From Candidatus Kryptonium sp. (GTDB lineage: Bacteria > Bacteroidota > Ignavibacteria > Kryptoniales > Kryptoniaceae): a stretch of 64,000 nt of DNA. Shown one piece after another: positions 7,414-51,610 of this stretch (positions within the stretch are counted from its first letter, which is position 1; each line of letters begins with the position of its first letter). The notes beneath the pieces were generated by a model. That model searched no databases. It had not been told where the DNA came from and worked only from the letters and a program-made list of their open reading frames with translations. The position numbers and the translations under genes are program-made. Location: NCBI GenBank assembly GCA_025060635.1, contig JANXBN010000001.1, positions 434,001-498,000 on the forward strand. The letters run 5' to 3'.

Positions 7414-7443
7414 TTGACTTAATGAATGAAAATTTGGTAAATT
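7414..7443 (+). promoter_or_regulatory. Sigma70-type promoter for the DUF4159/ExbBD operon
   Basis: TTGACT at 7414-7419 is separated by 18 bp from TAAATT at 7438-7443. It lies 35 bp before the first ATG of the nine-gene block in the only sizeable gap (195 bp) in front of it. The rest of 7284-7478 holds the stem-loop and no open reading frame I believe. Confidence 0.55.
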
Positions 7444-7478
7444 AAATACTTGGATAGCAAAAATATCACCTGTTAATT

Positions 7479-9140
7479 ATGCATCGTTTAATTTTCACTT
7501 TAATTTTCTTAAGTGTTGTAATTGCGGATTTTAGTAGTGCGCAAAGCCTGCCTGATACCATTATTATTTCAAATTTTTCCACCTATATTGACAACACATT
7601 AAGCCAAGGGGTTGATGCTTCTGGTTCGTCAGGTTACCTAATTTTGAAAACGAGCGAGCAAGAAAATCTCGCAAGAAGAAGGAGAGCGACGGTGACTTAT
7701 TATGGAACTGGCGAGCCTAAAACCGCCACGGGGGATAGGGATACTGTAACTGGAAATCCTATGAGGGCAATTGACGGTGATACTAGAACATTTTTCCAGA
7801 TAAGACCTGGAGGAGATGGAAGTTATATCTTAATTGATCTACTTGCCTTGAGAAGAATTAACAAAGTGATTATTGTAACCTTTGGCTTAAATCAAGCGTT
7901 GAGACCAAGAGCTTATACAATTTATGTGGGGACGGATTCGCTTCAGCTTACCAGAGTTGTTCAGAGAACAGATAATCAAGATGTAAGGACTCTTGATGTC
8001 TTTGATCCAGTTATTGCAAGATTTGTTAAAATAACTTTTGATGTCGTTGATAGACTTAGCTCAACTGTGATATCCGAAATAGAAGTTTATGGGGTTGGAT
8101 ATCTGTCCTCTGGTGAATATTATTCTAGGGTTATTGATGTAGGACAACCTGTTAATTGGGGATGGGCTGAATGGAATGCTGAACTGCCTGAGGGGACAGG
8201 AATAACTTTTCAATTTAGAACAGGTCCAACAGCGAGTATTAATGATAGTTGGAGCCCGTGGTCAAAAGAAATTTCTAAATCTGAAATAATTAGGGTAACT
8301 GAACCACGGCGTTATATTCAGTTCAAAGTAAATTTATCAACAACGACGACCGAAACACCTGTATTGAAAAGGCTTTTAATTTTTTATAATAAAAGACTCG
8401 TCGCCAGAAATATAATTCTTGAAATTCAACCTACTGTTGTACCGATCTTGAGAAGGACAGAGATAACCTGTAATTTTGATGTTGAGGCGGATACTGCTTC
8501 ACTTGGTATTGATACTTTAGTTGTGTTCACTCCATCTCCAGCAAATGTTGAATCTGTAACTTTAAATGGGAATCCTGTTGCATATTCAGTTGTGTCAACT
8601 CCTGAATATGTGAAGATAGCTTTTCAACAATCAATTAGGTCAAGCGCCAGAATATCTGTCAGGCTAAGTTTAACTCTTTATCTTGATATAAATGAATTTC
8701 CAGCGGTTGCAATAAGTAGGGCAACGGCATCAAATCCTCAATTCGTTGATACAAGGAGAAGAGGTAATCTAAACAGTTGGACTGTTCTAACAACCGATGT
8801 TCCTGAGAGATTGATAGTTGATTTACAAGTTAATCCAAATCCATTTTCTCCAAATGGCGACGGCATAAATGACAAAGTTCAAATTAGTTTCTTTCTTGCA
8901 AATCTTTCTGTAGAAAGAAATTTGAAAGTTCAAATTTTTGATCTCACGGGTAGGCTTGTAAGGACGATTTTTGATGGTCCAAGCAAAGCATTTGCTTATA
9001 TTTCTTCAAATTCATTTTCGTGGGATGGAAGAGATGAAAACGGAAAACTTGTAAGACCTGGTGTTTATTTGTTGAGAGTTGCGATAAACGCTGACAGCGG
9101 TCCTGAGTCAATTTTTAGAACTATAACCGTTGTTTATTGA
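7479..9140 (+). CDS. Secreted discoidin-like protein with C-terminal FlgD-like Ig domain
   Basis: A 553-residue exported protein with a Sec signal (residues 1-21, ending FSSAQS). After about residue 65 it has a discoidin/F5-8C-like galactose-binding fold, seen in AIDGDTRTFFQI, YILIDLLALRRINKVII and ARFVKITF followed by ISEIEVYGVG. A middle part of beta sandwiches follows. The last 100 residues begin NPNPFSPNGDGINDKVQI and continue with LKVQIFDLTGRLVRTI and GVYLLRVA, the FlgD-like Ig domain that often ends proteins exported by type IX-like systems in this group. It is first in the operon, 19 bp before a PorV-like gene. Probable surface or periplasmic binding protein; the ligand is unknown. Confidence 0.8.
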   Translation: MHRLIFTLIFLSVVIADFSSAQSLPDTIIISNFSTYIDNTLSQGVDASGSSGYLILKTSEQENLARRRRATVTYYGTGEPKTATGDRDTVTGNPMRAIDGDTRTFFQIRPGGDGSYILIDLLALRRINKVIIVTFGLNQALRPRAYTIYVGTDSLQLTRVVQRTDNQDVRTLDVFDPVIARFVKITFDVVDRLSSTVISEIEVYGVGYLSSGEYYSRVIDVGQPVNWGWAEWNAELPEGTGITFQFRTGPTASINDSWSPWSKEISKSEIIRVTEPRRYIQFKVNLSTTTTETPVLKRLLIFYNKRLVARNIILEIQPTVVPILRRTEITCNFDVEADTASLGIDTLVVFTPSPANVESVTLNGNPVAYSVVSTPEYVKIAFQQSIRSSARISVRLSLTLYLDINEFPAVAISRATASNPQFVDTRRRGNLNSWTVLTTDVPERLIVDLQVNPNPFSPNGDGINDKVQISFFLANLSVERNLKVQIFDLTGRLVRTIFDGPSKAFAYISSNSFSWDGRDENGKLVRPGVYLLRVAINADSGPESIFRTITVVY

Positions 9141-9159
9141 AAAATAACTTCGCTTTTTC

Positions 9160-10083
9160 GTGATGAAAAAAATCATTTTTTTTACGGTATTTGTCATTTT
9201 GCATCTTAACTTTGCTTGCTCAGGTGCTTTCAAGGATCTTGGGAATGGGGCTCGGGCTGTGGCTTTGGGTTTAACTTATGTTGCTATAGCTGATAATCCA
9301 TACGCTATGTTTTATAATCCCTCTGGAATTGGACAGATAAAAAGGTTAAGTTTTGCTTCAAGTTATTCGCGGCTTTATCCATTTGTTCAGGGTGAAAATT
9401 TATATTATTTAACATTCTCTGGTGTTTTGCCTGTTTTTTCATTGTTTGATTTTGGGGTTGGAGTTTCTTACTTCAAAACTGGCATGTGGAACGAGAATCA
9501 ATTTGTTTTTTCAATTGCGAGAGAATTTAAGTATATCAAAGGTTTATCTTTGGGCGGAAATTTAAAAATTTTAAGGTGGTCTGCAGTTGCCCCAATTGGC
9601 GAGTCCGGATATTCATATTTTGGATTCACATTTGACGCTGGAGCGATTTTCGTATGGCGCGATTTTATAAATGGTTCTGATTTTAGATTTGGATTAACTG
9701 CGCGAAATATAACACAGCCAAGTATTGCGGTTAACAAATCAAGAGATGCGAAACTACCACTTGAAATTGCTGGTGGTGTTGTTTATGTTTCAAGAACTTA
9801 TAATTATCAAATTGGTTTGGGCGCTTTAAGATCAGGTGATGAGTTAAAAGTTGATGTCGGATTTGAGATTCAAGCTATTTCGGCGGAGTTTTTAAGAAGT
9901 AATTTTGAATTTGTTATCAGGGCTTCTGGTGGAACAATCATAAATGGTGGTAAGCAATCAAGTTTAAATCCAGGATTTGGAATAAGATACTGGAAATTTA
10001 GGATTGACTATGTATATGTTCATCAGTTTGAAATATCCGATGCAGGCGGTAGCCATAAATTTAGCATTGAATTTAATCTATAA
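9160..10083 (+). CDS. PorV/PorQ-like outer-membrane beta-barrel
   Basis: A 307-residue protein with an N-terminal signal and the family opening GNGARAVALGLTYVAIADNP followed by YAMFYNPSGIGQI, the pattern of PorV/PorQ (UPF0164-like, FadL-related) outer-membrane proteins. The rest is alternating aromatic beta strands ending SHKFSIEFNL, as in barrels. PorV shuttles type IX cargo in Bacteroidota; whether this paralogue does so is inference, supported by the FlgD-tailed protein just upstream. The open frame can start at GTG 9160, but the adjacent ATG 9163 (MKKIIFF) is the more natural start. Confidence 0.8.
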   Translation: MMKKIIFFTVFVILHLNFACSGAFKDLGNGARAVALGLTYVAIADNPYAMFYNPSGIGQIKRLSFASSYSRLYPFVQGENLYYLTFSGVLPVFSLFDFGVGVSYFKTGMWNENQFVFSIAREFKYIKGLSLGGNLKILRWSAVAPIGESGYSYFGFTFDAGAIFVWRDFINGSDFRFGLTARNITQPSIAVNKSRDAKLPLEIAGGVVYVSRTYNYQIGLGALRSGDELKVDVGFEIQAISAEFLRSNFEFVIRASGGTIINGGKQSSLNPGFGIRYWKFRIDYVYVHQFEISDAGGSHKFSIEFNL

Positions 10084-10104
10084 AAAATTTTTGATTCACT
10101 TGCC

Positions 10105-13065
10105 ATGAAAAAATTTCTTATGTTGGCACTTTTAGCCATCGGTTTTGAAACAACATTTGCGCAATTTATCGCAAGAGACAAGGAAAGCTATCTTAATTAT
10201 TCAGGGCGAAATTACGAAAATTACAGCATCTCGTTTTTAAGAAAAAGGTTCTATGATAACTTTGGGAATTTTTTGATAGATGGGAGTTTAATTTTTGAGT
10301 TGCTTGAGAATCAAAGACAATTTACGGGGCAGGAGCTTGGTGGATTTAGTAGCTTGACAAAATCAAGGTTTTATTATCAATACTTCCAGAATCTTGTGAT
10401 CGCCAGCGATAATTATAGTGATTTTCAAACCAGGTTAATGATCGGTGATGCGATAAGAACAAAGTTTACATCTCTCACATTTGATAAAGCGAGGTTTAAT
10501 GGCGTGCGATGGGATGGAGCTACAACAAAGCACAGAGGAACATTCATAGTTTCAAGGACAAGTGATCCAGTAAGATTCAGATTTGATACACCTCTTTTAA
10601 TAGATGGTATTCAAAGGGTGCGAAATTGGGCTCAATATCTATTCGGTGGACATTTTGAAACAGACATTGGAGATGTTCTAACAATTGGTGCAACTTATGT
10701 AAATCAACATACAAGAAGAATGGATGTTAACGCTCGCGATGTCCCTTTTAAAGGTGTCCCGCCAAATGGTGTGCCGAGAATAATTTTCGTCAGGATAAGC
10801 GACGATTCTCCGAGAGATGGTTCAGGTCCGATAATTTACTCTGATCCAGTTGTAAAAATTAATGGCAGAGTTGTTTCAACTAAAAATATAAATGGTAAAG
10901 TTCCAACTGCCCAGGAAACAGTTTTAGGAGCTCCATTACAATACTACGTTTTTAGGAACTTCAGCATTGATAGAACACTTTGGGTTGCTGGAGCTGATAC
11001 ATTAAGCTACACTGCGTATACTCCAATTCAAGGTGGACCTGGTTATAAATTCAGATCAATGTTATCAGCACTGCCTGTTTATCCAGAGCGAATACCAAGC
11101 GATGGAAATATAACTTTTGCTTATATAATTCCACCTGGAGTTGAATCGGTTGAATTTGAGCTTATCGTTGCAAATGATTTTAAAATTGAAGCAGCTCATG
11201 ATTTTGTTAATCGTCTTGATGATTGGGAGGAAACCGGTGGAGCGAGGTTTATTCCTCATTATGACTCAGTTGCAGTTGGAACACCGACATTTTTCCGTTT
11301 GATAAAAAGAGCTGATGGAAATGTAAAAGATGCTTCAAATCGTCAAATAGTAAGATTCAATTACGCTCTTACAACTGGAATGAGCGTGTATAGTTTAAAC
11401 TTCAAATTTAACTGGAGAGGCTTTAACATAGAAGGTGAATTTGCTCAAAGTTTGGAATGGTCAAAGTATCCAGTTGGTCGCGGTCCTTGGTTTACACAAA
11501 AGGGAAATGCTTTTTATATAAAAGCATCAAAAAAAGTTGGACGATTGACATTCGGATTTGAACGATATAGAATTGAACCAACATATACAACTGCTCTCAA
11601 CATTTATTCACTTGAAAATAGTTATTACATGATGTGGACCGGCTCTGGCTACGCTTATCTTGCGCCTGATGTTTATGGAGTGACTGCTTATGATGTTTCA
11701 AGTGGTATATCATTTATCCCTGGTGGTGCTTATTTTTCGCTTGTTGATGATAACGATGACAGAGACAGATGGGAAGATGGATTTTATTTCTACAATGCAA
11801 CGCCAAATCCAACTTTTGAAAACAGCGATGTTTTGAACCCAACGCCCGATCCGTTTTTGCTTGGTTATAGGCAAAACGCAAATGAATTAATTGGTTTAAC
11901 AAGTATAATAAGAAGACCTGATGCTGGTATATTCCCTGGCAAGGATAGAAATAACGACGGGATACCTGATGATGATCAAAACGCAAATGGAATTCCAGAT
12001 TACCAAGAGGATTTTCTTACATATTACAGCGATCCACCAATTTTTGATTATGGCGATGATTGGAACAATAATGGTGTGATTGATGAGCAAGAAAATGATA
12101 TTTATCCAGATTATCCTTATGAGCCAGACATAAATGGATATCATGCTTTTACAAAGATAAATCTTGCAAGAGGTTGGACAGCTCAAATTGGTCTCATAAA
12201 TGAGAGAGCGATTGCAAGAGGTGGAGCAAATCAAGTTTCTTATATAAAGACATTTTATACGACTTCAAACCCGCGTTTAGGTTCCCTTCTTTTATATTAT
12301 GTCGCAAAAAGAGTAAGGGATGAAGTTCCAAACCCAGTTTATCAATACAAGGGCGTCATAACTATAACAAGCCCTTTCCCAGTTTTCACGGAAGACCAAT
12401 TAAGATATAGAAATAGTTTTGTGCATAACCTTTATCTTGAAACAAGATACACTCAAATCCCAAACCTTAATATTGAAAATAGAATTCGTTTTGAGCTTAA
12501 TTTCCAACGCCCGCTTGGAGATCCTACGAGAGCTTTGCTACCAGAAGCAAAATACACGGGTGATCAACTTGACGGAAGAATTACGCTTTGGGGCCTCGTC
12601 CATAAAATTGATTACACCCTTAAATTCTTTAATGGTCGTCTTGAAATAAAACCGCAATTTAAAATCAGGACCGTTAAAGAAACAAAGCTTGGTTATGTTG
12701 ACATCGGTGGAAATTTAAGAAAAATAACAAACATAATTCAGCACACGCAAGAGACGATCCCGATTTTTAGAATAGGATATAAATTGACGGATAGATCCGT
12801 TTTTAACTTCGGAGTTCAAGGTTTGAGCATCGTTGGTTTTCCTGAATTGTTTTCTTACAGGATAAGAAACTTAAAGGACGATTCTGGAAGCGAGAATAGA
12901 GGAACGATAGCATTTTCGCTTACGAATCAGAGCTCTTATAAAGGTTACTCAATAGTTGTTGACTTTGGGTATAAATTCACAAAACGAAAGTTCATAAAAC
13001 CAGGTGAACAAAAATATAGCAGAGATGAGTCAGCGATATTTTTCACAGTTATCGCTGGGTTTTAA
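10105..13065 (+). CDS. Large outer-membrane protein of unknown family with calcium-loop insert
   Basis: I do not recognise a named family for this 986-residue protein. It has a clear signal peptide (MKKFLMLALLAIGFETTFAQ) and long runs of alternating polar/aromatic strands from about 20-220 and 720-986, ending in an aromatic-rich strand (AIFFTVIAGF), which suggests a beta-barrel. Around residues 613-660 there are thrombospondin-type-3-like calcium loops, for example DRNNDGIPDDDQNANGIPD and NNNGVIDEQEND. It lies between the PorV-like gene and the TPR gene, 21 and 18 bp away, so it is part of the same operon. It may be the outer-membrane component of the ExbB/ExbD-linked machine, which is inference. 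Confidence 0.75.
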   Translation: MKKFLMLALLAIGFETTFAQFIARDKESYLNYSGRNYENYSISFLRKRFYDNFGNFLIDGSLIFELLENQRQFTGQELGGFSSLTKSRFYYQYFQNLVIASDNYSDFQTRLMIGDAIRTKFTSLTFDKARFNGVRWDGATTKHRGTFIVSRTSDPVRFRFDTPLLIDGIQRVRNWAQYLFGGHFETDIGDVLTIGATYVNQHTRRMDVNARDVPFKGVPPNGVPRIIFVRISDDSPRDGSGPIIYSDPVVKINGRVVSTKNINGKVPTAQETVLGAPLQYYVFRNFSIDRTLWVAGADTLSYTAYTPIQGGPGYKFRSMLSALPVYPERIPSDGNITFAYIIPPGVESVEFELIVANDFKIEAAHDFVNRLDDWEETGGARFIPHYDSVAVGTPTFFRLIKRADGNVKDASNRQIVRFNYALTTGMSVYSLNFKFNWRGFNIEGEFAQSLEWSKYPVGRGPWFTQKGNAFYIKASKKVGRLTFGFERYRIEPTYTTALNIYSLENSYYMMWTGSGYAYLAPDVYGVTAYDVSSGISFIPGGAYFSLVDDNDDRDRWEDGFYFYNATPNPTFENSDVLNPTPDPFLLGYRQNANELIGLTSIIRRPDAGIFPGKDRNNDGIPDDDQNANGIPDYQEDFLTYYSDPPIFDYGDDWNNNGVIDEQENDIYPDYPYEPDINGYHAFTKINLARGWTAQIGLINERAIARGGANQVSYIKTFYTTSNPRLGSLLLYYVAKRVRDEVPNPVYQYKGVITITSPFPVFTEDQLRYRNSFVHNLYLETRYTQIPNLNIENRIRFELNFQRPLGDPTRALLPEAKYTGDQLDGRITLWGLVHKIDYTLKFFNGRLEIKPQFKIRTVKETKLGYVDIGGNLRKITNIIQHTQETIPIFRIGYKLTDRSVFNFGVQGLSIVGFPELFSYRIRNLKDDSGSENRGTIAFSLTNQSSYKGYSIVVDFGYKFTKRKFIKPGEQKYSRDESAIFFTVIAGF

Positions 13066-13069
13066 TTAT

Positions 13070-13077
13070 GGAGGTGA
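13070..13077 (+). promoter_or_regulatory. Strong Shine-Dalgarno for the TPR gene
   Basis: GGAGGTGA sits 6 bp before ATG 13084 and fixes that start. Most genes in this operon lack such a site, so translation of this gene is probably set separately. Confidence 0.75.
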
Positions 13078-13083
13078 AGCAAT

Positions 13084-16000
13084 ATGTGGAAAATTATCAT
13101 CATAGTCACATTAACTGCGTCAATAATTTCTAACTTCGTTCCGACGCCGCTTGAACTTCAGAAAGCTTTTACATCCGGACAAAACTTTTATGCAAGCGGG
13201 GACTTTAAAAAGGCAATAAAGCAATACGATATAATTATAAATACCGAAAGCAAACTTCTAAATGAGGACAGTGTAAGAGTTGCGCTTTTTCACGGAGATT
13301 TAGTGGTAAGCGTGAAAACAGCAGCTTATTATCAAAAAGGCAACGCTTTGAGAAAATTAAAGCGAAATGCGGAAGCAATTGAAAGTTTCAGAGTTGTTGC
13401 GGAACAAAGAAAAGATTCGCCTTGGCTCTCGGCTCTTGCGCAATATCAAATTGCCGATATTTATTACGATGAGAGTAAATTTGAAGAAGCGATAGCTGAG
13501 TCAAAAAAATTGATTGTGAATTTCCCCAAAGATGAGCGCGTTCCCAAAGCATATTACACTATTGGATGGGCGTTTAAGGAATTGAAAATGCTTGATAGTT
13601 CAATTTCCTACTTCAAATCGCTCGTTGAAAAATTCCCGCGCTCGGAGCTTGTCCCCCACTCAATGTATCAACTTGGACAAAACTATTATGATAAGGCAGA
13701 TTATAACACAGCAATTGCTTGGTTCAGAGATATCGTTGAAAAATTCAAACCTGAGAGATTCAAAAAGGAGGAATTTGAAAAAATTGAATTAAAAGCTGTA
13801 AGAGAGAGAAAAATTTTTGAGGCTGTAACTGGGCGTGAAGGTGAAGAGACACCTCTTGAGATCGTTGCAAAAGCAAGCTTGAGAATTGCGGATTGCTACA
13901 AAATGATGGATAACTTTGATGAGGCAATAAAATCATATAGAAATGTAATAGCAACATATACACTCCTTCCAAGTTTGATTGAGACGGCTTACATAAAAAT
14001 GGCTGAATACACTTTGCAAAAGAAGGGGCTTGAATCTGGAATTGCAGTTTACAAGGAGGCGATAGATAGAAGTTTTGAGAATAAGCAGTTGCAAGCAAAA
14101 ATGCAGTATTTGATTGCGAAAACATATCAAGATTCCCTTCTTTATGACAGGGCAGCGAATGAGTATGATTTTTATATAAAAGCGTATAGCGAAGTTGCGT
14201 TTTTAATTGATTTTCCAGTTGAGGATGCAACATATTCTAAAGTCATATGTCTTTACAACGCAAAGAAATATAAAGAAACAATTGCTGAATGTGATTCGTT
14301 TTTGATCAAGTTTCCCGGCTCTGATTATACTCCAGATATGCTTTTCTTCAAGGGGATTTCTCACCTTGCGATTGGAGATTATGCTTCGGCTGAAAGTTCA
14401 TTTGTTAAAGTGAAAACAGAATATAGAAATTCACCACAATACACGCCTGCTTGTATTCAGCTTGGTCGGACATATTATGAGTGGAAACGATATGACGACG
14501 CTTTAAATGAACTCAACAGATTGCTTGCAGAAAACCCGACAGATCTTAACAAAGATGAAGTTTACTACTACATTCTTTTGACTTATTTTGACACCCAGAA
14601 ATACGATAGTTTGCTGAACATCTTTGCTCTTATCAAACCTGGCTCAAGCTTTTATTTGCCTGCTTTCATCAAAGTGTCAAAGTCATTCAGTTTACAAAAC
14701 AAGTTTGCTGAGGGTGAAAAATTTATAAAAGATATTTTAAAAACAGCCGAAACTTTAAAGGATAGCATTTACTTCATTCCAGAGGTTCGTTTCTCGCTTG
14801 CTGATATTTACATTGGGCAGGGGAAGTATAAAGAAGCTATTGATGAACTAACGCTTGTCATAGATGATCCAAAAGCAAATGATATATTGAAACTTCAATC
14901 AATTTATGCTCGTGGTTCTCTTTATTACCAGATTGAACAATATAAAGAAGCGGTGATTGATTTTGAGAAATGTGTCTCGGATAAAAAATTCAGGGAAAAT
15001 TTACCTCAACTTGTTTCACAAGTCAACGAAAAATTAGCGATTTCTTATGTCAAAATTGGGCAAATTGCGAAGGGCGTAAATCTCGTCTCAAAGTTGATCA
15101 ATGAAGTGCCAGAGCCATCGGAAAAGATAAGATATACTGCTGTGCTTGCTGAAGCATATTTTGAAGCGAAAGATTACAAAAACGCTGTAAAATTTGCAAG
15201 TGATGTTTTTCAAAATGATGTTTCAGATGAAATTGTTTTCACAAAAGCAACATATGTGCTTGCTAACTCACACAGGGAACTTGGGGAATTTAACAAGGTT
15301 TTAAGTGTCCTGTCAAAAGCGGGTGAAAAATTTCCAAATTCAAAGTTCGTCCAAGAGGTTTTCTTCTCTACAGGAGCGGTTTATTACGATAAAGGCGAAT
15401 ATGAAAACGCAATTGAAATTTTTGATAGGTATCTGAAACTTTTCCCTAACTCTGAAAATTACAAGAGCGCCTTGTTCTTTTTATCATATTCGTATTTCCG
15501 ACTTGGATACTGGGATAAATCTGTGACATATTTCAGAAGGTTTGTAAGGGAATTTCCAAAAGATGAGTTTGCGCCTGAAGCTTACTTTAATATCGGTGAA
15601 TCTTATTACAACATGGCAAAGTATGAAGATGCTATTCGTGAATACAGGAATGTTTATAGGCTTTATCCTAACGATGAGCTTGCGCCTGTTGCTCTTTATA
15701 GCGAAGGTTGGTGTTATTACGAGCTCCAAAAACCAGAGCAAATGATTGAAACCTTTAAGCAACTTGTCAAGCGTTATCCAAAAAGTGAACACTCACCAAT
15801 TGCTCTCTTTACAATTGGAGATTACTATTATAATTCAAAAAATTATGCTAAAGCTCAGCAAGCGTATGAGGAATTTGTCTCAATGTATCCCGACCATGAA
15901 AAGGTTAACGAAGCGAAACAGCTTATAAAAGATCTGAAGCTGATAAATGTTTACGCTGAATATCAAGAAGCGATGAAGTACTTTGACAATAAGGATTATC

Positions 16001-16239
16001 GTCGCGCTATTGAGGAACTTACGAAGATATGGCAAAAATATCCTGATTCAGACATCGTTGTTGGTTGTCGTGTGAATATAGCTGCTGCATACGAACAGCT
16101 TGGTGATTGGCGAAAAGCTGCGAAGATGTATGAGGAGATAATTCGGGATTATGAAAATTCAACAGATGACAATGCTCGTGCAGCTGTCCTTTTTGCAAGG
16201 GAACATCTTGAATGGTTGAGAAGTAATTTCAATTTTTGA
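13084..16239 (+). CDS. Very large TPR-repeat protein, exported
   Basis: A 1051-residue protein made almost entirely of tetratricopeptide repeats after an N-terminal hydrophobic segment. Repeats are easy to see, for example ALAQYQIADIYYDESKFEEA, AYYTIGWAFKELKMLDSSI and AYFNIGESYYNMAKYEDAI, many with the YP-N/K-x-E/D linker of BamD/YbgF-type periplasmic TPR proteins. Such proteins scaffold envelope complexes; CpoB/YbgF plays this part next to Tol. Here it lies 23 bp before exbB, so a scaffold role for the motor encoded downstream is a reasonable inference. No catalytic motif is visible. Confidence 0.88.
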   Translation: MWKIIIIVTLTASIISNFVPTPLELQKAFTSGQNFYASGDFKKAIKQYDIIINTESKLLNEDSVRVALFHGDLVVSVKTAAYYQKGNALRKLKRNAEAIESFRVVAEQRKDSPWLSALAQYQIADIYYDESKFEEAIAESKKLIVNFPKDERVPKAYYTIGWAFKELKMLDSSISYFKSLVEKFPRSELVPHSMYQLGQNYYDKADYNTAIAWFRDIVEKFKPERFKKEEFEKIELKAVRERKIFEAVTGREGEETPLEIVAKASLRIADCYKMMDNFDEAIKSYRNVIATYTLLPSLIETAYIKMAEYTLQKKGLESGIAVYKEAIDRSFENKQLQAKMQYLIAKTYQDSLLYDRAANEYDFYIKAYSEVAFLIDFPVEDATYSKVICLYNAKKYKETIAECDSFLIKFPGSDYTPDMLFFKGISHLAIGDYASAESSFVKVKTEYRNSPQYTPACIQLGRTYYEWKRYDDALNELNRLLAENPTDLNKDEVYYYILLTYFDTQKYDSLLNIFALIKPGSSFYLPAFIKVSKSFSLQNKFAEGEKFIKDILKTAETLKDSIYFIPEVRFSLADIYIGQGKYKEAIDELTLVIDDPKANDILKLQSIYARGSLYYQIEQYKEAVIDFEKCVSDKKFRENLPQLVSQVNEKLAISYVKIGQIAKGVNLVSKLINEVPEPSEKIRYTAVLAEAYFEAKDYKNAVKFASDVFQNDVSDEIVFTKATYVLANSHRELGEFNKVLSVLSKAGEKFPNSKFVQEVFFSTGAVYYDKGEYENAIEIFDRYLKLFPNSENYKSALFFLSYSYFRLGYWDKSVTYFRRFVREFPKDEFAPEAYFNIGESYYNMAKYEDAIREYRNVYRLYPNDELAPVALYSEGWCYYELQKPEQMIETFKQLVKRYPKSEHSPIALFTIGDYYYNSKNYAKAQQAYEEFVSMYPDHEKVNEAKQLIKDLKLINVYAEYQEAMKYFDNKDYRRAIEELTKIWQKYPDSDIVVGCRVNIAAAYEQLGDWRKAAKMYEEIIRDYENSTDDNARAAVLFAREHLEWLRSNFNF

Positions 16240-16262
16240 AAAATAAATCTTGGTGACTGTTT

Positions 16263-17129
16263 ATGTTGCTTTTAATTCAGCAAAAATCGTGGTGGTCTTG
16301 GCTTTGGGATAATTGGCTTGTTGATATCATCATCAAGGGTGGACCTTACATAATGGTTCCTCTTTTTATCTTTTCGGTAATTTCAATGGGGATAATAATA
16401 GAGAGAATTTATCGGTATGTTCGCATTCCAAAGGACAAAAAAATAGCGCAGATGCTTGAGGAAGTTGAGAAGATTTTAAAGGAAAACAAAAAGATTGAGC
16501 CAGTTGTTAGATATTTTGAGGAGCAAAGAAACGCTCTTTCTTTTGTGTTTCTTTCAATCTTGAAAAGGTATGAGTTCCTTCTTCAAGAAAATCGGCAAAT
16601 AAATGATATGCGTCAAGAATTGATGGAAACAGCGGTGGGTTCAACATCAGATTATCTTGAAGAGTTTTTGCCTATAGTTGCAACGATTGCTAATGTTGCG
16701 ACATTGCTTGGACTCTTTGGGACAATAATTGGTATGATCATGTCGTTTGATGAACTTGCAAAAGGTGGTAGAGGTGATCCAGCGGTCGTTGCACAAGGTA
16801 TCTCAGTTGCTCTTATAACCACCGCTGCGGGATTAACAGTTGCGATTCCATCTATACTTGGATATAGCTTTTTGAGAAGGCGAGCAGAGAAAATAACGAA
16901 ACACCTTGAACCGTTTGAAAATCATTTTGTCAATACGCTTTTGCGTGAGCACGGGAGAATTGAAGCTTACAAAGTTATAGTTGCAAGCATTTTTAGAATA
17001 AGAAATGGAAACTTGAGCGAAGAAGAGAAGGAGTATTTGAGGCGCAAACGAATTGAGCTTGATATTTCAGACGAAGAAGCCAAGATTATAGAAAACGAAG
17101 TGATCAAAAATTTGGAACAGAAAAAATAA
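16263..17129 (+). CDS. exbB: ExbB/TolQ/MotA-family proton channel with C-terminal extension
   Basis: ExbB-type proteins form the pentameric channel that, with ExbD, converts proton flow into work on the periplasmic side. This one has a membrane helix at about 28-48, then a cytoplasmic domain, then helices at about 136-160 and 178-204 with TIANVATLLGLFGTIIGMI and ISVALITTAAGLTVAIP, the conserved pore-lining pair. It is 288 residues long, more than the usual 200-250. The extra is a charged cytoplasmic tail from about 230, including GNLSEEEKEYLRRKRIELD and ISDEEAKIIENEV, which I cannot assign to a known domain. It is followed by exbD after 12 bp. Confidence 0.92.
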   Translation: MLLLIQQKSWWSWLWDNWLVDIIIKGGPYIMVPLFIFSVISMGIIIERIYRYVRIPKDKKIAQMLEEVEKILKENKKIEPVVRYFEEQRNALSFVFLSILKRYEFLLQENRQINDMRQELMETAVGSTSDYLEEFLPIVATIANVATLLGLFGTIIGMIMSFDELAKGGRGDPAVVAQGISVALITTAAGLTVAIPSILGYSFLRRRAEKITKHLEPFENHFVNTLLREHGRIEAYKVIVASIFRIRNGNLSEEEKEYLRRKRIELDISDEEAKIIENEVIKNLEQKK

Positions 17130-17141
17130 TTACGCCTGAAA

Positions 17142-17564
17142 ATGAAGAAGAAAAATAAAAATGGCGACTATTCAGTTGACATTAACCTAACTCCAATGAT
17201 TGATTGTGTTTTTCAGTTGTTGATATTTTTTATGGTGACAACTGTCTTTGCAGTTCAAAGTGGTTTAAAGGTTGATCTACCAACAGCAGCTTCGTCCGAT
17301 GCTCCACCAGAAAAGGATTTGACAATTGTCATTTCATCAAATGGCGAAATGGACCTGAACGGAAGGCGAGTTACATTTGATAACTTGCAGGAAGAGATGT
17401 TAAAAGATAAGGAGATATTTGGGAGCAAGGTTTTGATAATTAAGGCGGATAAAAAAACACTGCATGGAATAGTTGTAAAAGTTATGGATATTGCAAAATT
17501 ATGCGGGATTGATCAACTCGCCATAGCTACTGAGAAGGAAGAAGAGGAAATTCAAGTTAGATAG
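17142..17564 (+). CDS. exbD: ExbD/TolR-family biopolymer transport protein
   Basis: A 140-residue partner of ExbB with one membrane helix and a periplasmic domain. The helix contains INLTPMIDCVFQLLIFFMV, with D21 at the position of the essential proton-carrying aspartate of ExbD/TolR. The periplasmic part has the usual beta-strand and VLIIKADKKTLHGIVVKVMD pattern of these domains. It is placed between exbB and the TonB-like DUF4159 gene (7 bp). This supports a functional motor but does not tell whether its output is Ton-like or Tol-like. Confidence 0.93.
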   Translation: MKKKNKNGDYSVDINLTPMIDCVFQLLIFFMVTTVFAVQSGLKVDLPTAASSDAPPEKDLTIVISSNGEMDLNGRRVTFDNLQEEMLKDKEIFGSKVLIIKADKKTLHGIVVKVMDIAKLCGIDQLAIATEKEEEEIQVR

Positions 17565-17571
17565 TTCGGAA

Positions 17572-18828
17572 ATGGAGAACAGAAATTATAAAATACCAGG
17601 GATTGAATTAAGCGATAGGATAGCGCAGTTTATCTACGAGAACAGAAAAGGGCTATTGAAGTTTTTGTTAATTGCGTTTTTGATTCATAGCATTCCTGTG
17701 ATTTTAAATGTTAGATTGCCGGAGAAGAAAGAGATAAAGCGACCACCAACAACTGTAAAGTTTATCCAAAGACCACCGCGTTTGACGAAGAGCATTGAGT
17801 TCAGAAAAATGCCCACTATCGTTGAGCGAGTTCTTCAAAGGTTTGTGTCACCTCAAAAGCCTCGGATGTCGGCTCGTTCAATGACAACCGCGGCAGTTCA
17901 TGGAGGAACATCGCTTGCTTCGCTTGCAAGACCTGGCGAGTATATTGAGAGAACTTATTCGCCACCTGCGATGTTAGCAGGACCGAGCTTAAATTACGAC
18001 ATAACTGACACACGACATGCTGGAAAAACGATAAAAAGTTTACAGGAAGAATTGATAAGTTATACAAACTTTATGGATAGGTTTGAAGGTTGGCTTGAGC
18101 GTGGGCGAAGCAAAGAAGATTGGAGAGGTTTTTTGAATGTTTATCAAGTTGAATACAGAAGCAGTAAATCTGCTCCGAATGGGGAACCTATGTGGAATTA
18201 TAGACCAGCAGCGTTGCAAAATCTCCAAAGATATGCTATGGAAGTTTTGCCAAATCTTCAGCTCAATCTTATGGGTTCAATTCGCCTTGATTCAAAAAAT
18301 ATACTTGATGTCCCAATTCTTATAATGATGGGCTATGATGGTGAGGTGATATATACAAAAAATGAAGTGGAAAACCTTGCCAAATATCTTCGTTCAGGTG
18401 GATTTCTATTTATTGACGATGGGCTTGCCTCTGCGTATGGTCCATTCACAAGATCAGTAAAACAACTTATCAAAGATGCGCTCGGTTATGACGCCGTTTG
18501 GGAAAGAATTCCGAACAATCATCCAATTTATCATATTTGGAAAGATTTTGATGGTCCTCCTGCCGGCGATGACCTTGCAAGAGTTGATACAAGAAGACCA
18601 GCGCGCGAGGTTTATAATTACCTTGAAGGAATTTGGCTTGGAGGGCGTCTTGCGGTTGTGTTGTCAAATCGTGGATATACGCAAGCTTGGGGTGATTGGC
18701 CATATGCAACTCCACCCCTTGATAACGCAAGACAATTACAAATGGGATTAAATATACTTATATTTGCGATGAATCAACCTGGAGGAATCGTTGCGAAAAA
18801 TAAACAAAAAGTCGTGATGCAACAGTGA
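17572..18828 (+). CDS. TonB-like membrane anchor fused to a DUF4159 domain
   Basis: A 418-residue protein of unusual build. Residues 1-26 are cytoplasmic and 27-47 form one membrane helix (LLKFLLIAFLIHSIPVIL) with H39 inside it, reminiscent of the histidine in the TonB helix that engages ExbB/ExbD. A lysine/proline/arginine-rich periplasmic stretch follows (EKKEIKRPPTTVKFIQRPPR), as in TonB. Instead of the TonB C-terminal domain, residues about 187-405 are a DUF4159 domain, with VYQVEYRS, GGFLFIDDG, NNHPIYHIWKDFDGPPAGDD, YLEGIWLGGRLAVVLSNRGY and RQLQMGLNILIFAMN. DUF4159 has a predicted class I glutamine-amidotransferase-like fold and no known role. The gene lies 7 bp after exbD. I infer that it transmits force from the motor to an unknown partner. 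Confidence 0.85.
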   Translation: MENRNYKIPGIELSDRIAQFIYENRKGLLKFLLIAFLIHSIPVILNVRLPEKKEIKRPPTTVKFIQRPPRLTKSIEFRKMPTIVERVLQRFVSPQKPRMSARSMTTAAVHGGTSLASLARPGEYIERTYSPPAMLAGPSLNYDITDTRHAGKTIKSLQEELISYTNFMDRFEGWLERGRSKEDWRGFLNVYQVEYRSSKSAPNGEPMWNYRPAALQNLQRYAMEVLPNLQLNLMGSIRLDSKNILDVPILIMMGYDGEVIYTKNEVENLAKYLRSGGFLFIDDGLASAYGPFTRSVKQLIKDALGYDAVWERIPNNHPIYHIWKDFDGPPAGDDLARVDTRRPAREVYNYLEGIWLGGRLAVVLSNRGYTQAWGDWPYATPPLDNARQLQMGLNILIFAMNQPGGIVAKNKQKVVMQQ

Positions 18829-18860
18829 AACTAACACACAAAAATTTAATTTTATTTAAT

Positions 18861-18865
18861 GGAGG
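18861..18865 (+). promoter_or_regulatory. Strong Shine-Dalgarno before the first lipoprotein gene
   Basis: GGAGG lies 9 bp before ATG 18875, in the longest gap (46 bp) inside the operon, and supports that start. Confidence 0.7.
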
Positions 18866-18874
18866 CGATTTAAA

Positions 18875-19717
18875 ATGAAATTTAATTTTTTACTTTTACT
18901 TTTTGCTTTGACATTTTGGGGTTGTGCTTATTTTTTGAGCGAAAATTATGAAGAGCAGAATAAACCAATCGTTGAAAATGTCCTCGCTGTTTCCGATACG
19001 CTTGCAACGGTTGTTAAAGATAGCGTTAAGGTAAGCGTAAAACTTTTGACACCAGAAGAAATCAGGAAAATAAGCTCGGGGAAAAGATACGATAAAAAAG
19101 ATTTTGAGAAAATTTTGAAAGATGAGTATATAAACTACGCACAAGATGACAACGCAGAAGTTCTTTCAGCTTATAATGAATACATCCACCTACAGGAGCA
19201 AGGAAATTACTATGATGTCTTTGGAAATCCGATATCACCTCAAGGCGTCCCAAGTCCATTTGAAGATGACTTTGGAAAAATTCCATACCTCGTTTTTGAT
19301 GTCACAATTGAAAATTTACGCTCAGACAAAATAGAAATAAAACCATCCGCAAGCGTCTTGCTTGATGATAAGAGAAATCAATTTAGGGCTCTTGAAGTTG
19401 ATGATATAATTCAGACGGAACCGATACCATATCAAATGAGATATATAAATCCATACACGATCTATGATCCGTTTCTTGCTGGTTATTTATTGAATATGCA
19501 AAGAAGAGTTGAACTTAATAAAAAGTTTTTGAGAGATATTTTGCTCCGTGATGAGAAAATTTATCCCGGTGTTATTAGAAAGGGATTGATAGTTTTCAAA
19601 AAGCCTGTTGAAAAAGTTAAATGGCTTCTTCTCGTCATCCCAGAGGTCGCAATTTATGAGAACAATGAGAAAGTGAAATCCATTGACTTTAGATTTGAAT
19701 TTGTAAATGAAAAATAA
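18875..19717 (+). CDS. Lipoprotein, N-domain paralogue of the following DUF4159 lipoprotein
   Basis: A 280-residue lipoprotein (signal ending LTFWGC, C17). No named family is recognised. Its body, from PYLVFDVTIENLRSDKIEI through LLDDKRNQFRALEVDDII to PGVIRKGLIVFKKPVEKVKW, matches the middle of the next protein (FTVFKVSIYNYTAPKINF, LLSDRGDRFIAYGLDA, GDSREGLIVFDPLSEGVERI). The two therefore share an immunoglobulin-like beta domain, but this one lacks DUF4159. It is expected to be anchored in the outer membrane facing the periplasm. It follows the TonB/DUF4159 gene and is 14 bp before the DUF4159 lipoprotein, so it is probably a partner in the same machine. Confidence 0.82.
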   Translation: MKFNFLLLLFALTFWGCAYFLSENYEEQNKPIVENVLAVSDTLATVVKDSVKVSVKLLTPEEIRKISSGKRYDKKDFEKILKDEYINYAQDDNAEVLSAYNEYIHLQEQGNYYDVFGNPISPQGVPSPFEDDFGKIPYLVFDVTIENLRSDKIEIKPSASVLLDDKRNQFRALEVDDIIQTEPIPYQMRYINPYTIYDPFLAGYLLNMQRRVELNKKFLRDILLRDEKIYPGVIRKGLIVFKKPVEKVKWLLLVIPEVAIYENNEKVKSIDFRFEFVNEK

Positions 19718-19731
19718 ATTTTTGCTGAAAA

Positions 19732-21207
19732 ATGAAAAAGATCTTGTTGGCTATTTTGATGTCATTCATTTTGAGTGGTTGTGATAGCGTCTATCGTTTT
19801 CTTTTGTTGCCACCTCAAAAAGTTGAGTATGAAATTCTTCCAGATGTAGAAATGATTAAAACGATCAAAGATACGAGCTATTATATTGGAAAGGATTCAA
19901 TGACGATTGTTTTTGACAAGGGCACTTTCAAAGTTGAAATTAAATATATGAGCGATTATCAGCTGAATAACTTTGAGTTTCCGGAGGAATCAAAAGGTGG
20001 AATTTATTCAACAAATCCTTATACATATGGAGATTGGGTTGATCCTGAGCTTGGCTATACTCCAAATCGTTTCACCGTTTTTAAAGTTTCAATTTACAAC
20101 TACACTGCGCCGAAAATAAATTTTGATCCAGAAAATGCTATTTTATTAAGCGATCGTGGGGATAGATTTATTGCATACGGGCTTGACGCCAAGACTAGCA
20201 AGTTTCATAGCATAGAGGAGTATTACAGGGCAAGGAAGGGTTCCTCCGGTATTGATGAAGAAGTTTTTGAGGCAAGAATGGGAATAGCAAGAAGAACAAT
20301 GCTAACTTACGGGCGACCGCTTTATAAAGGTGATAGTAGGGAGGGATTAATTGTTTTTGATCCATTATCGGAAGGTGTGGAGAGAATAAAAGTCGTGTTG
20401 AAAAATTTCATAATCGGTTATGATGAAAACAATGTTCCAAGCGATTTTATTGATATAAATTTCTATTTCAAGCGAGTTCCAATAATTCGTAGGACAGAGG
20501 AGGCAGGTAAGTTGGTTGCGATCGGTGGTGAAAGCGTTGACATAAAAACGATTAAAGATAGGGAAATAAAAATTTTCCAGGTAAAATACGGAGGGGATGG
20601 TGAAGAGATAGTTGAATCTGGTTTAAAAAATCTCATTGAATTTCTAAATAAAAAAGAAGGTTTAAATATCACTCTTGAAAGCGGGCGAGCGGAATCTCCG
20701 AGTGTTTCTAAATCCGACCTTGTTGTGATCAGTGGCGGTGTGGTGAAACCACAGTTTTCTCCATTGGCAATTGATAATTTCGTTGCGTGTATAAGAAACG
20801 GCGGAATTATTTTAATAGATGACTTGAGCCACTCAAGATCAAGTCAGTTCAATCTTGGAGCCAGAGATTTGCTTGATAAAATAAGAGCAAGATTTGAAAG
20901 AAGTTATATTGAAAAAGTTTTTCTCTCCCATCCCATATATTCAATCTGGGCTAAAGTAAAAGAATTACCGCTCGGAGCAGACGATATAGTTGAAACAAAG
21001 GAATTTGAGAAAGAAGAAAAATATACATACCTTGAGGGACTTTTCTGGCAGAAAAAATTGATAGTTGTCTTCTCAAACAAAGGTTATATGCGGATACTTA
21101 GCAAATTTGATAATCCATCCATTGATAATACATCTCAACTTCAACTTTTCTCCAATATACTGCTCTACGCGGTTTCAACTAAACAGTTGGCTATGAAATC
21201 AGAATGA
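19732..21207 (+). CDS. DUF4159-containing lipoprotein
   Basis: A 491-residue lipoprotein with lipobox LSGC (C17). Residues about 50-250 repeat the beta domain of the preceding lipoprotein. Residues about 278-486 are a second DUF4159 domain that lines up with that of the TonB-like protein: KIFQVKYGG, NGGIILIDDLSHSR, SHPIYSIWAKVKELPLGADD, YLEGLFWQKKLIVVFSNKGY and SQLQLFSNILLYAV. The domain is thus presented once on an inner-membrane anchor and once on a lipid anchor in the same operon, suggesting the two DUF4159 modules meet in the periplasm. Catalytic residues cannot be named with confidence. It is the last gene of the operon and ends 6 bp from a convergent peptidase gene. Confidence 0.85.
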   Translation: MKKILLAILMSFILSGCDSVYRFLLLPPQKVEYEILPDVEMIKTIKDTSYYIGKDSMTIVFDKGTFKVEIKYMSDYQLNNFEFPEESKGGIYSTNPYTYGDWVDPELGYTPNRFTVFKVSIYNYTAPKINFDPENAILLSDRGDRFIAYGLDAKTSKFHSIEEYYRARKGSSGIDEEVFEARMGIARRTMLTYGRPLYKGDSREGLIVFDPLSEGVERIKVVLKNFIIGYDENNVPSDFIDINFYFKRVPIIRRTEEAGKLVAIGGESVDIKTIKDREIKIFQVKYGGDGEEIVESGLKNLIEFLNKKEGLNITLESGRAESPSVSKSDLVVISGGVVKPQFSPLAIDNFVACIRNGGIILIDDLSHSRSSQFNLGARDLLDKIRARFERSYIEKVFLSHPIYSIWAKVKELPLGADDIVETKEFEKEEKYTYLEGLFWQKKLIVVFSNKGYMRILSKFDNPSIDNTSQLQLFSNILLYAVSTKQLAMKSE

Positions 21208-43056: not shown

Positions 43057-43085
43057 AAATCAAAAACAAATTTTCTGCAACTAAG

Positions 43086-46000
43086 ATGATGAAGCAGATA
43101 TCCAAAATGCTTCTTGTGATTTTGAGTTTGTTTTCATTTGCATTTTCTCAAAATGTTTTATCTGACAGGGAAAAGGCTCTGCAGATATTGCGAGGCTTAA
43201 CATCAAAGGAAAGGGAAGCAGAAAGAAAGGTAGAATATAAAGCTGTAAAAGATTACATACAATCGGGCTATAATGTTTCAAAATTCAATAAACCAAGTCC
43301 GAGTCAGGCAGTTTCTGAACTACCGCCTTACATAGCAAGAGATCCCAAGCTTGCGGAGAAATATAAAAAGATAAAATCTCTATCGCCTTCAGAGGTTGAG
43401 AAATTTTATCGTGAGCTTGATAAGAACATTCGCAAAGTAGCTGGCGAAGCGGACAGGAAAAAGCTCGTGATGAATGGGAACAAAATCACGGTGACTGTTT
43501 ACAATTATGGTTCTCTTTCTGCTCCCGGTGACAGGATAACGGATGTTGTTTGGAATAGATTGGGATATGCATATGAATTTGGTCCTCTCGTTGGTGCATC
43601 GGTAGTTGATGCGAATGGTAGAAGAGTCCATATTATAACAGATGGTTTGCTTGATGGTGGTGACCGCTCACCAGATGGTAGGAAACGCTGGGGTTGGCAA
43701 CCTCTTCCGGGTTATGCAGATCCAAACCAGGATAAGATAGCTCACAACCCAGATAAAGATTTGAATGGGGATGGCAAGCCGGATTCATGGCCAGCGAGTT
43801 GGTATGATCCAGTTTTAGGTAAGTATGTTTGGCCCGGTTATCTTTCAAGAGATGCAACACAAGCAGATCTTGAGGTCTTTTATGTTATGGACGATAGAGA
43901 TAATGAAGAATTTGCATATTATCCATTTATCAACGATTCATCAAGAAGAGGATTAGGAGTTCAAGCTCAAGTTCGGCTTTTGCAATGGAGCAATCCTCTT
44001 GCGGAGGATGCTATTTTCATTGTTTACACAATTACAAATGTAAGTGATAAAGATCTTGACAGTGTTGTGTTTGGAATGTGGGGTGATCCGCATGTTGGTG
44101 GCGCGACTGATTATAGTGATGATGATTCTTACTTCATACCTCCTTACAATGTTCCAAATTATCCACCAGTTGATAATATCCCAGTTTACGCAAGGAGTAT
44201 GGTGTATTCTTGGGATCATGATGGCAAAGGAATGTTCGGCTTAAAGCCGGGTTATTTCGGTTATAAGTTCCTTGAATCACCCGGTAACCCATACGATAGA
44301 ATAGATAATGATGGAGATGGAATGGTGGATGAAAGTCAACAAGATGGCATAGATAATGATAGAGATTGGAATCCTCAAGTTGATGATTTAGGAGTGGATG
44401 GGGTTCCCGGAACTGGAGACGAGGGTGAGGGGGATGGAATACCAACGAGAGGTAAAATACTTCCAGACGGCAGTTTAGATCCGCTAAGCCCTGGTGAACC
44501 AAATTTTGAATTTACAGATCTTGACGAATCTGATATGATTGGTTTGACGAGTTTCAATGCTTTTATATGGTCAACTGATTATGTAAGTAATGATGAAAGC
44601 ATCTGGAATCGTTTGAAACCCGGAAACTTTTCTGAGATAATTCAGACAGCTGATAATGTTTTTCTATATGGTTCGGGCTATATTCAATTACCTAAAGGGC
44701 AAACAAGACGCTTTTCTGTAGCGTTGCTTTTGGGTGAGGATTTAAACGATTTATTGCTGAATGCAGAAACAGTGCAAAGAATATATAATGCAAACTATAG
44801 ATTTTTCCGACCGCCAGAAAGACCCAAAGTTCGTGCAGTAGCTGGCGATAGAAAAGTCACATTATATTGGGACACTCGCGCGGAGCGTAGTTTTGATCCT
44901 TTGTTTGGTAGAAATCCTTTAGATGAAAAAGATCCTGGTTACGATTTTGAAGGTTATGTTATTTATAGGTCAACTGATCCACAGTTTAAAGATGTTGAGT
45001 TAGTGACCGATGGCAGAGGAGCTAAGTATTTGAGAGTTCCATTGAAAGATGCATTTGGGAAAGATGCAAGATTTGACAAGATCAACGGTTGGCGTGGTTA
45101 TAGCGTTGTTCCATATCCTGGGCGAGGAGTTCATTACTATCTGGGTGATGATGTTGGATTGGTGCATAGCTATGTAGATAGTGTGGGTGTTATGAATGGT
45201 GTTAAATATTATTATGCTGTGGTTTCATATGATAGAGGAGATAGTTTAGGTATACCGCCAAGTGAGTGTACAATGAAAATAATTGTTGACCCCATAAGTG
45301 GTGAGGAAGAGTTAGACGATAATGTTGTTAGTGTCATACCAGGCGATAGGGCTATCGGTTATGTGGGGCCAGAAGTGAGCAAAGTTGTTGATGGAGTTAA
45401 GTTTAAACAGATAAGAGGAAGGGGAACAGGAAAAATACAGGTGGAGGTATTGAATGATTTGGAAGTGAGAGATATGGGATATAGTATATGGTTTGAGGGT
45501 GCTGGGGATAGCTTAAGATGGAATGTTATGCCTGACGAGGAAAAGGTAGAAAAGTTTGATTTTAGAGATACAGTTTGGAAGAAGCTTTCAGGTTTGCCTT
45601 TAAGAGGCAGTGTTAAGGTAGGAAGTTTTGCCGAAGGTGCGGATTATATAGTTGATTACGAGCGTGGATTAGTAAGGGCAACTAGAACTGGTAATTTGTT
45701 AGGAAGAAGCGAAGTTGAGGTTAGATATAGGTATTATTCAGTTCGTAGAAGTAGGGAATTAAGTGGTGGGGATGGAAGTGAAGTGTTTGATGGAATGAGA
45801 ATAAGAGTATGGAATGAGAGTTTAGGTTTGGACTTGGCAAAGAGCGGTTGGAGTGGTGGTAGCATTGGTAAAATTAAATACAGAATAAGCACAGCTACAC
45901 TTGGCTTGGGTAGAAGGATGTATCCAGCAGATTTTAGGATAAAGTTTGGTAAGTTAGACACTTTGTCAAATGGTAGCTTAGTCAGTCCTGTTGATACCAG

Positions 46001-46685: not shown

Positions 46686-46706
46686 ACAAAGTTTCGGAGA
46701 AACGCT

Positions 46707-47732: not shown

Positions 47733-47750
47733 AATCACTTAGGAATTGGC

Positions 47751-48692: not shown

Positions 48693-48693
48693 G

Positions 48694-51585: not shown

Positions 51586-51610
51586 AATTTAAAATTAAAA
51601 AAGGTTTGAG

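Follow-up and report, generated by a model that had tools for sequence, protein, structure and literature searches.

Nine adjacent genes (g1 to g9) in a 64,000-nucleotide stretch of DNA from Candidatus Kryptonium sp., a hot-spring bacterium (GenBank assembly GCA_025060635.1, contig JANXBN010000001.1, positions 434,001 to 498,000; referred to here as the window) probably encode one dedicated trans-envelope machine driven by the proton-motive force (PMF). Force would pass from an inner-membrane motor through the transducer g7 to the outer membrane. A probability of about 0.62 is assigned to this reading on the basis of sequence comparisons. By sequence, the motor and the N-terminal portion of g7 are of an already known kind; the head of the transducer and the set of outer parts differ from those of known systems. 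The genes might represent an undescribed class of PMF-driven machine, a proposal that is made tentatively. This class would combine a TonB-like transducer carrying a DUF4159 head with a new barrel family and a pair of the type IX secretion system (T9SS) type, kept as one unit in four phyla of the FCB group with its motor exchanged, and would drive a surface apparatus, for example for gliding or energised adhesion. No published description of this system was found.

Gene Block in the Window

All nine open reading frames proposed in an earlier reading of the sequence alone are present on the (+) strand at positions 7479-21207, and the gene calls of that reading agree with Pfam and NCBIfam profile searches of the nine proteins. 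Domain calls given below are from these profile searches. Structures are AlphaFold2 (AF2) models, which were compared by Foldseek and against the PDB. The features of the block are as follows.

g1, 7479..9140, + strand: exported surface protein of 553 aa with a signal peptide, an F5/8C (discoidin/galactose-binding) domain and a tail of the CHU_C/FlgD type that is similar to type-B sorting domains of the T9SS
g2, 9160..10083, + strand: PorV/PorQ/PorP-like outer-membrane barrel of 307 aa, candidate shuttle or anchor of g1
g3, 10105..13065, + strand: predicted large outer-membrane beta-barrel of 986 aa, no known family, the marker gene of the system
g3 acidic insert, 11740..12144, + strand: residues ~546-680, LVDDNDDxDR...DGIPDDDxN...GDDWNNNxxID
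g4, 13084..16239, + strand: tetratricopeptide repeat (TPR) protein of 1051 aa with a putative N-terminal membrane anchor
g5, 16263..17129, + strand: ExbB/TolQ-type motor subunit (MotA_ExbB, 4e-30)
g6, 17142..17564, + strand: ExbD/TolR-type motor subunit (ExbD, 2.5e-31) with membrane Asp D21 at 17202-17204
g7, 17572..18828, + strand: predicted force transducer of 418 aa with a TonB-like membrane helix, a linker of ~115 aa and a DUF4159 head resembling class-I glutamine amidotransferases (GATase1-like)
g7 His39, 17686..17688, + strand: predicted motor-binding histidine of the SxxxH (SHLS) type
g7 D-box-like segment, 17743..17778, + strand: PPTTVKFIQRPP, residues 58-69
g8, 18875..19717, + strand: predicted lipoprotein of 280 aa, apparent diverged relative of the g9 N-domain
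g9, 19732..21207, + strand: predicted lipoprotein of 491 aa with a conserved N-domain of ~210 aa and a C-terminal DUF4159 domain

The intergenic gaps from g1 to g9 are 19, 21, 18, 23, 12, 7, 46, and 14 bp (range 7-46).

Conservation of the Block

The marker gene g3 was detected in 14 of 119 relatives, and full-length g7 occurs in exactly these 14. The carriers are the genus of the window, one whole family (f12) except for one incomplete genome, and one genus in each of two further families. The peptide patterns GDDWNNN and [SA]GRNYENY, which more divergent members may escape, were used for a wider scan of 84,980 species genomes. With duplicates removed, 46 distinct loci were obtained from Kryptonia, Ignavibacteria, KSB1, Zixibacteria, and Marinimicrobia, representing four phyla. 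The block is rare outside the class of the window (3/149 Marinimicrobia, 1/82 KSB1, and 2/4 genomes of the Zixibacteria group).

Where the contig is long enough, g3 is accompanied by g2 in 42/42 loci, g1 in 38/38, g4 in 29/29, g9 in 29/29, and g7 in 10/10. The order g1-g2-g3-g4-g5-g6-g7-g9 is common to KSB1, Zixibacteria, Marinimicrobia, family f12, and Kryptonia. Genes outside the block vary from lineage to lineage, and the limits of the conserved unit are therefore fixed by these changing flanks. The sequence-only reading had made its case depend on the first four and the last five genes being kept together; the two sets are linked in every sufficiently long locus in the four phyla. Its inference of a trans-envelope machine on a proton motor is supported by this linkage and by the co-occurrence of the genes across genomes. 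The nine-gene unit that it described is retained as a core of eight genes across phyla, with g8 seen only in the genus of the window.

The promoter proposed at position 7414 did not hold up. The match is 9/12, and 51 such matches were obtained in the scan versus 45.4 +/- 6.3 expected in shuffled sequence; because this count is near the shuffled expectation, the match has no evidential weight. Promoter and terminator scans were uninformative. The start of the operon is better shown by the 195-bp gap upstream of g1 and by the lineage-variable flanks than by the promoter match.

Transducer g7

The g7 protein has a short cytoplasmic start, one transmembrane (TM) helix, a linker of ~115 residues that is predicted to be disordered, and a C-terminal domain in the AF2 model. 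His39 in the helix is invariant in 27/27 sequences from four phyla. The residue four positions before His39 is Ser or Ala in nearly all g7 proteins and is Ala in the window. The SxxxH/SHLS feature is the contact of TonB and TolA with their motors (PMC10907165, PMC12204202), and g7 possesses the N-terminal TM helix with an SxxxH-type histidine that characterizes transducers of the TonB/TolA type. The proline-flanked segment PPTTVKFIQRPP appears just after the helix and fits 6/7 positions of the D-box pattern, as a pattern match only. A D-box, by its published definition, directly follows the TM helix and alternates hydrophobic with hydrophilic residues between flanking prolines (PMC10907165).

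The C-terminal half of g7 was identified as DUF4159 with an E-value of 8.7e-22 (PF13709, 78.1 bits versus a gathering cut-off of 25.9). The AF2 model of the head aligns with PDB entry 4i66 with a Z of 22.3 and a root-mean-square deviation of 1.9 over 188 residues. Weaker structural relatives include class-I GATases, ThuA, and the GIFT domain of IFT52. A TonB_C or TolA C-terminal domain is absent from g7 by Pfam and structure. The earlier label "TonB-DUF4159" is thus apt for the TonB-like membrane helix and linker and for DUF4159, and does not extend to the C-terminal domain of TonB. A von Willebrand factor A (vWA) head was rejected, since Pfam and structure assign the head to DUF4159 and no vWA fold is among the listed structural matches. 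Literature searches returned no mention of DUF4159, PF13709, 4I66, or Hoch_4089. The best reading of these sequence comparisons is that the DUF4159-headed g7 would constitute a new class of transducer.

Two observations concern DUF4159 more broadly. Nearly all genomes of the class encode a stand-alone DUF4159 protein of ~230-300 aa (for example, G000 C1:8286-8843). In KSB1, two tandem g7 genes, each encoding a TonB-like helix and DUF4159, are located at L118:17381-19954, and the g9 of that cluster is without DUF4159.

Motor Genes and Motor Exchange

The g5 protein contains the LGLFGT and TTAAGL motifs, and g6 contains the LTPMIDCVFQLLIFFM motif with the membrane Asp. The ExbB and ExbD Pfam domains, the membrane Asp, and the Thr motifs of the ExbBD/TolQR family are thus all found in this pair. 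In a phylogenetic tree the clade of g5 contains neither of the other two ExbB proteins that the same genome encodes.

The g5-g6 pair is missing from many Ignavibacteria, in which a divergent ExbB-ExbD-ExbD set either precedes g1 or separates g7 from g9. The ExbB proteins of the divergent sets group as a single clade (support 1.000) that includes neither g5 nor the other two ExbB proteins encoded in the window's genome. The spacing between the proline and VKF in the linker box of g7 is two residues in 18/18 proteins encoded beside the original motor and zero in 17/17 encoded beside the other motor or with no local motor. This association is consistent, at the level of sequence, with contact between motor and transducer. 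That the motor is swapped inside a conserved block, and that the g7 linker differs accordingly, is a further link between motor and outer parts. The sequence comparisons support a system in which the outer parts would be the constant element and the motor would be exchangeable.

Surface and Outer-Membrane Parts

The tail of g1 matches CHU_C with 31.9 bits, above the Pfam cut-off of 27, and NCBIfam TIGR04131 with 27.9 bits, below the cut-off of 35. A discoidin domain was found in 4/7 of the g1 orthologues scanned, and F5/8C and CHU_C domains are also present in orthologues from KSB1, Zixibacteria, and Marinimicrobia. The orthologues of g2 give PorV/PorP-like scores similar to those of g2 itself, and the g2 profile has no match in a PDB sequence search. 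In Flavobacterium and Porphyromonas, T9SS cargo with type-B tails is often encoded beside, and held by, partners of the PorP/SprF type (PMC9143113, PMC12618676). By analogy, the adjacency of g1 and g2 resembles a type-B cargo/shuttle pair.

No Pfam, NCBIfam, or PDB sequence match was obtained for g3. Its acidic insert is the most conserved stretch of the protein, with invariant columns in an alignment of 21 sequences from four phyla, and is possibly Ca2+-binding. By Foldseek and structure alignment, the g3 model matches many unrelated large barrels, so that no family can be assigned from the model. SprA is listed by Foldseek among the many large barrels and was rejected with an hhalign probability of 0.1. 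MtrB is also a Foldseek match, but an MtrB-like electron conduit was rejected because no CxxCH haem motif is present in the nine proteins. The ushers FimD and PapC align at a Z of 13.7, but so do porins, FhuA, and the S-layer porin of Deinococcus. A TonB-dependent transporter (TBDT) was rejected because no Plug or TBDT barrel Pfam match was obtained up to an E-value of 0.1. The g3 protein would represent a new family of outer-membrane barrels.

TPR Protein and Lipoproteins

The g4 protein matches TPR_6 with an E-value of 6e-72. A conserved hydrophobic segment followed by FIPTPxE, with no lipobox, forms its N-terminus, and this segment is read as a membrane anchor from its sequence. The proposed parallel with CpoB was not sustained, as the hydrophobic N-terminus without a lipobox is unlike that of a CpoB-type periplasmic protein or lipoprotein.

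The g8 protein belongs to no Pfam or NCBIfam family and has a lipobox-like site. Comparison of g8 with the N-domain of g9 by hhalign gave a probability of 93.8 and an E-value of 1.7e-7, and by this comparison g8 is a lineage-specific diverged relative of that domain. A lipobox is present in most g9 orthologues, including g9 of the window, and g9 is probably located in the outer membrane, as suggested by sequence. Its N-domain of ~210 aa is conserved in all phyla (E-values of 1e-61 to 1e-78 for KSB1, Zixibacteria, and Marinimicrobia). The DUF4159 domain of g9 (1.7e-7; 31.4 bits versus a cut-off of 25.9) is fused to this N-domain in Bacteroidota and is absent in KSB1 and Zixibacteria. On its C-terminal side, the Marinimicrobia g9 (L123:16543-17811) has a sub-threshold TonB_2 match (19.2 bits versus a cut-off of 22) in place of DUF4159.

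Proposed Machine and Alternative Explanations

In the proposed machine, the ExbB-ExbD pair g5-g6 would form the inner-membrane proton motor. The transducer g7 would engage this motor by its TonB/TolA-type helix and D-box-like segment, and its DUF4159 head would replace the usual C-domain. A very large, probably membrane-anchored TPR protein, g4, and the predicted lipoprotein g9, with a second DUF4159 domain in this lineage, would complete the connection. The putative g3 barrel and the surface protein g1, encoded beside its PorV/PorP-like partner g2, would make up the outer end. The motor may pull or rotate g7, the head of which could grip the outer-membrane side at g9 and/or g3 with g4 as a scaffold, and force might then reach g3 and the g1-g2 surface unit.

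Several points weigh against this machine. It is known from genes alone. Four of the 24 loci with enough flank (G058, L098, L101, and L102) have no motor in the cluster and show the altered order g1-g2-g3-g9-...-g4-g7. A general head-to-head contact of g7 and g9 is impossible because g9 is without DUF4159 in KSB1 and Zixibacteria. Motor type and g7 linker type both also track phylogeny. The correlations between distance matrices, which in themselves favour the machine (0.90-0.97 among g1, g2, g3, g4, g7, and g9; for g5, 0.84 with g7 as the best and 0.63-0.76 with the others), are without an unlinked-gene control, so that shared ancestry explains part of them. For g1, the assignment of a T9SS tail comes solely from profiles, and g2 falls below curated cut-offs (NCBIfam PorV_fam, 3e-16, 60 bits versus a 90-bit cut-off; PorP_fam, 1.9e-6). 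The AF2 model of g3 is a beta-barrel of modest quality, with a mean predicted local distance difference test score of 63, and the acidic insert is absent from it. The gene-level character of the case, the loci without a local motor, and the exchangeable motor also favour a co-regulated envelope operon, in which the outer-membrane genes would stand physically outside any motor-driven machine. This is improbable in view of 100% linkage across four phyla amid changing neighbours, the identical patchy presence of the genes, and the way in which the g7 linker changes along with the motor.

Among possible outputs of a motor-driven machine, mechanical action on g1 is favoured, followed by import and then secretion, with Tol-like stabilisation last. 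In the mechanical output, a glycan-binding adhesin that the T9SS delivers would be displayed, be moved, or adhere in an energised manner; this output is put forward with reserve. For import, g1 and g3 would be a SusCD-like unit for capture and uptake that is opened by g7 as a dedicated substitute for TonB. The discoidin/galactose-binding domain in g1 of several phyla and the dedicated ExbBD motor with an SxxxH transducer point this way, as does a T9SS-tailed GHL10 glycosidase gene directly after g9 in family f12, Zixibacteria, and Marinimicrobia, three phyla in total (L059:2977-4836, L122:17132-18991, and L123:17818-19629). However, the g3 protein has neither a Plug or TonB-dependent-receptor Pfam match nor a sequence match to solved receptors, g7 is without TonB_C, the domain by which Ton boxes are gripped, the genome already encodes a TBDT alongside a canonical ExbB-ExbD-TonB set, and the Kryptonia clusters contain no GHL10 gene. 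Import is thus judged unlikely. The GHL10 genes of Kryptonia genomes are located outside the cluster only, and the ancestral operon may have included a GHL10 glycosidase that was later lost.

Secretion, with g3 as an export channel gated by the PMF, or as an accessory translocon of the T9SS, for g1 and neighbouring T9SS-tailed enzymes, is doubtful. The tail of g1 and the g2 protein are similar to cargo/shuttle pairs of the T9SS (PMC12618676), T9SS-tailed enzymes adjoin the cluster in several lineages, and canonical GldM was undetected by TIGR03517 or PF12081, a negative that has no positive control. On the other side, an ordinary SprA translocon occurs without the machine in ~105 genomes, and g3 has no profile similarity to SprA. 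A Tol-Pal equivalent acting in outer-membrane stabilisation or division would account for the set of motor, transducer, TPR protein, and lipoprotein. It is very improbable because the distribution is patchy (14/119 in the class, 3/149 Marinimicrobia, 1/82 KSB1, and 2/4 of the Zixibacteria group); moreover, no Pal or TolB domain was found in the nine genes by Pfam and NCBIfam, and g1 with its PorV-like partner g2 belongs to the block throughout.

Comparison with Known Systems

The Tol parallel drawn in the sequence-only reading applies to the motor, the SHLS-type transducer, the TPR protein, and the lipoprotein. It is weakened by the absence of a Pal/OmpA domain, TolB, or a TolA/TonB C-domain from the block, by the patchy distribution, and by the constant barrel and surface protein. 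The Ton system has a homologous motor, an invariant TM histidine, and a proline-flanked D-box-like segment in common with the present block. Unlike the Ton system, the block has no TonB_C and a dedicated non-TBDT barrel, and coexists with an ordinary ExbB-ExbD-TonB set in the genome. As in the T9SS type-B pairs SprB-SprF and PG1035-PorP, g1 with its CHU_C-type tail is followed directly by the PorV/PorP-like g2; in contrast to those pairs, the profile scores of g2 are remote and g1-g2 is always joined to the barrel and transducer operon. Unlike the GldKLMN/SprA apparatus, the nine genes include no SprA-type translocon. The Agl-Glt gliding machine of Myxococcus contains an ExbBD-type motor, TonB-like linkers, a TPR protein, and outer-membrane barrels; it serves as a lead only, as the sequence comparison was limited to the match of g4 to GltC, which is negligible.

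Force transducers with vWA heads encoded beside TPR and tolQR-like genes were described in 2025 by Williams-Jones et al. (PMC12204202). The present system is similar to these in its SHLS-type helix, disordered linker, non-TonB globular head, and adjoining tolQ/tolR-like motor and TPR genes. It differs in its DUF4159/GATase1-like head, new barrel, new lipoprotein, T9SS-type cargo/shuttle pair, and occurrence in FCB-group phyla. The text of that study contains no mention of "Ignavibacter", "PorV", or "GATase". A literature search on Kryptonia, Kryptonium, or Thermokryptus with TonB or type IX returned a 2016 survey as the only Kryptonia paper.

A GATase1-like head would be added to the TonB/TolA and vWA heads of ExbBD/TolQR-type motors and would widen the range of tasks that these motors drive. 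The natural exchange of motors in a conserved outer block, with a matching linker difference, offers a ready test of motor-transducer recognition. A candidate surface machine is also provided for mostly uncultured lineages that have the T9SS protein SprA and in which GldM was undetected, with no positive control.

Genome Context

SprA is encoded elsewhere in the 2.5-Mb genome that contains the window; 118/119 relatives also have it, as do 10/10 additional carriers that were checked. Its occurrence with or without the machine indicates that the machine comes on top of the T9SS translocon. The sequence-only reading had suggested a check for canonical gldLM. GldM models score in no genome tested, with or without the machine (TIGR03517, 0/9; PF12081, 0/17), and no control genome scored above the cut-off. 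A class with SprA in 118/119 genomes yet no GldM score has either a very divergent GldM or a T9SS on another motor. Besides its canonical ExbB-ExbD-TonB set, the genome of the window contains an orphan ExbB-ExbD-ExbD set. A set of this kind (G000 contig C7, L136:9107-10928) has no TonB-like gene among its immediate neighbours. Loci of the G058 type encode T9SS-tailed amidase and golvesin-domain proteins.

Upstream of the 195-bp gap is a gene for a 235-aa protein, tentatively labelled "trmB-like". A convergent DPP4-like gene begins downstream of g9 at 21214. The window protein at 40360-43056 matches Plug and TBDT barrel profiles. It is the first in a row at 40360-53368 that comprises a TonB-dependent receptor, an unassigned protein of 1199 aa, a clear member of the PorV family (230 bits), a protein resembling N-acetylglucosamine kinase, a GH3/beta-lactamase-fold fusion, and a sodium:solute symporter. 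This row looks like a salvage locus for amino sugars or peptidoglycan. At 30160-33006 on the (-) strand, a 948-aa protein combines PD40/DPPIV-like beta-propeller repeats with an Omp85 barrel domain.

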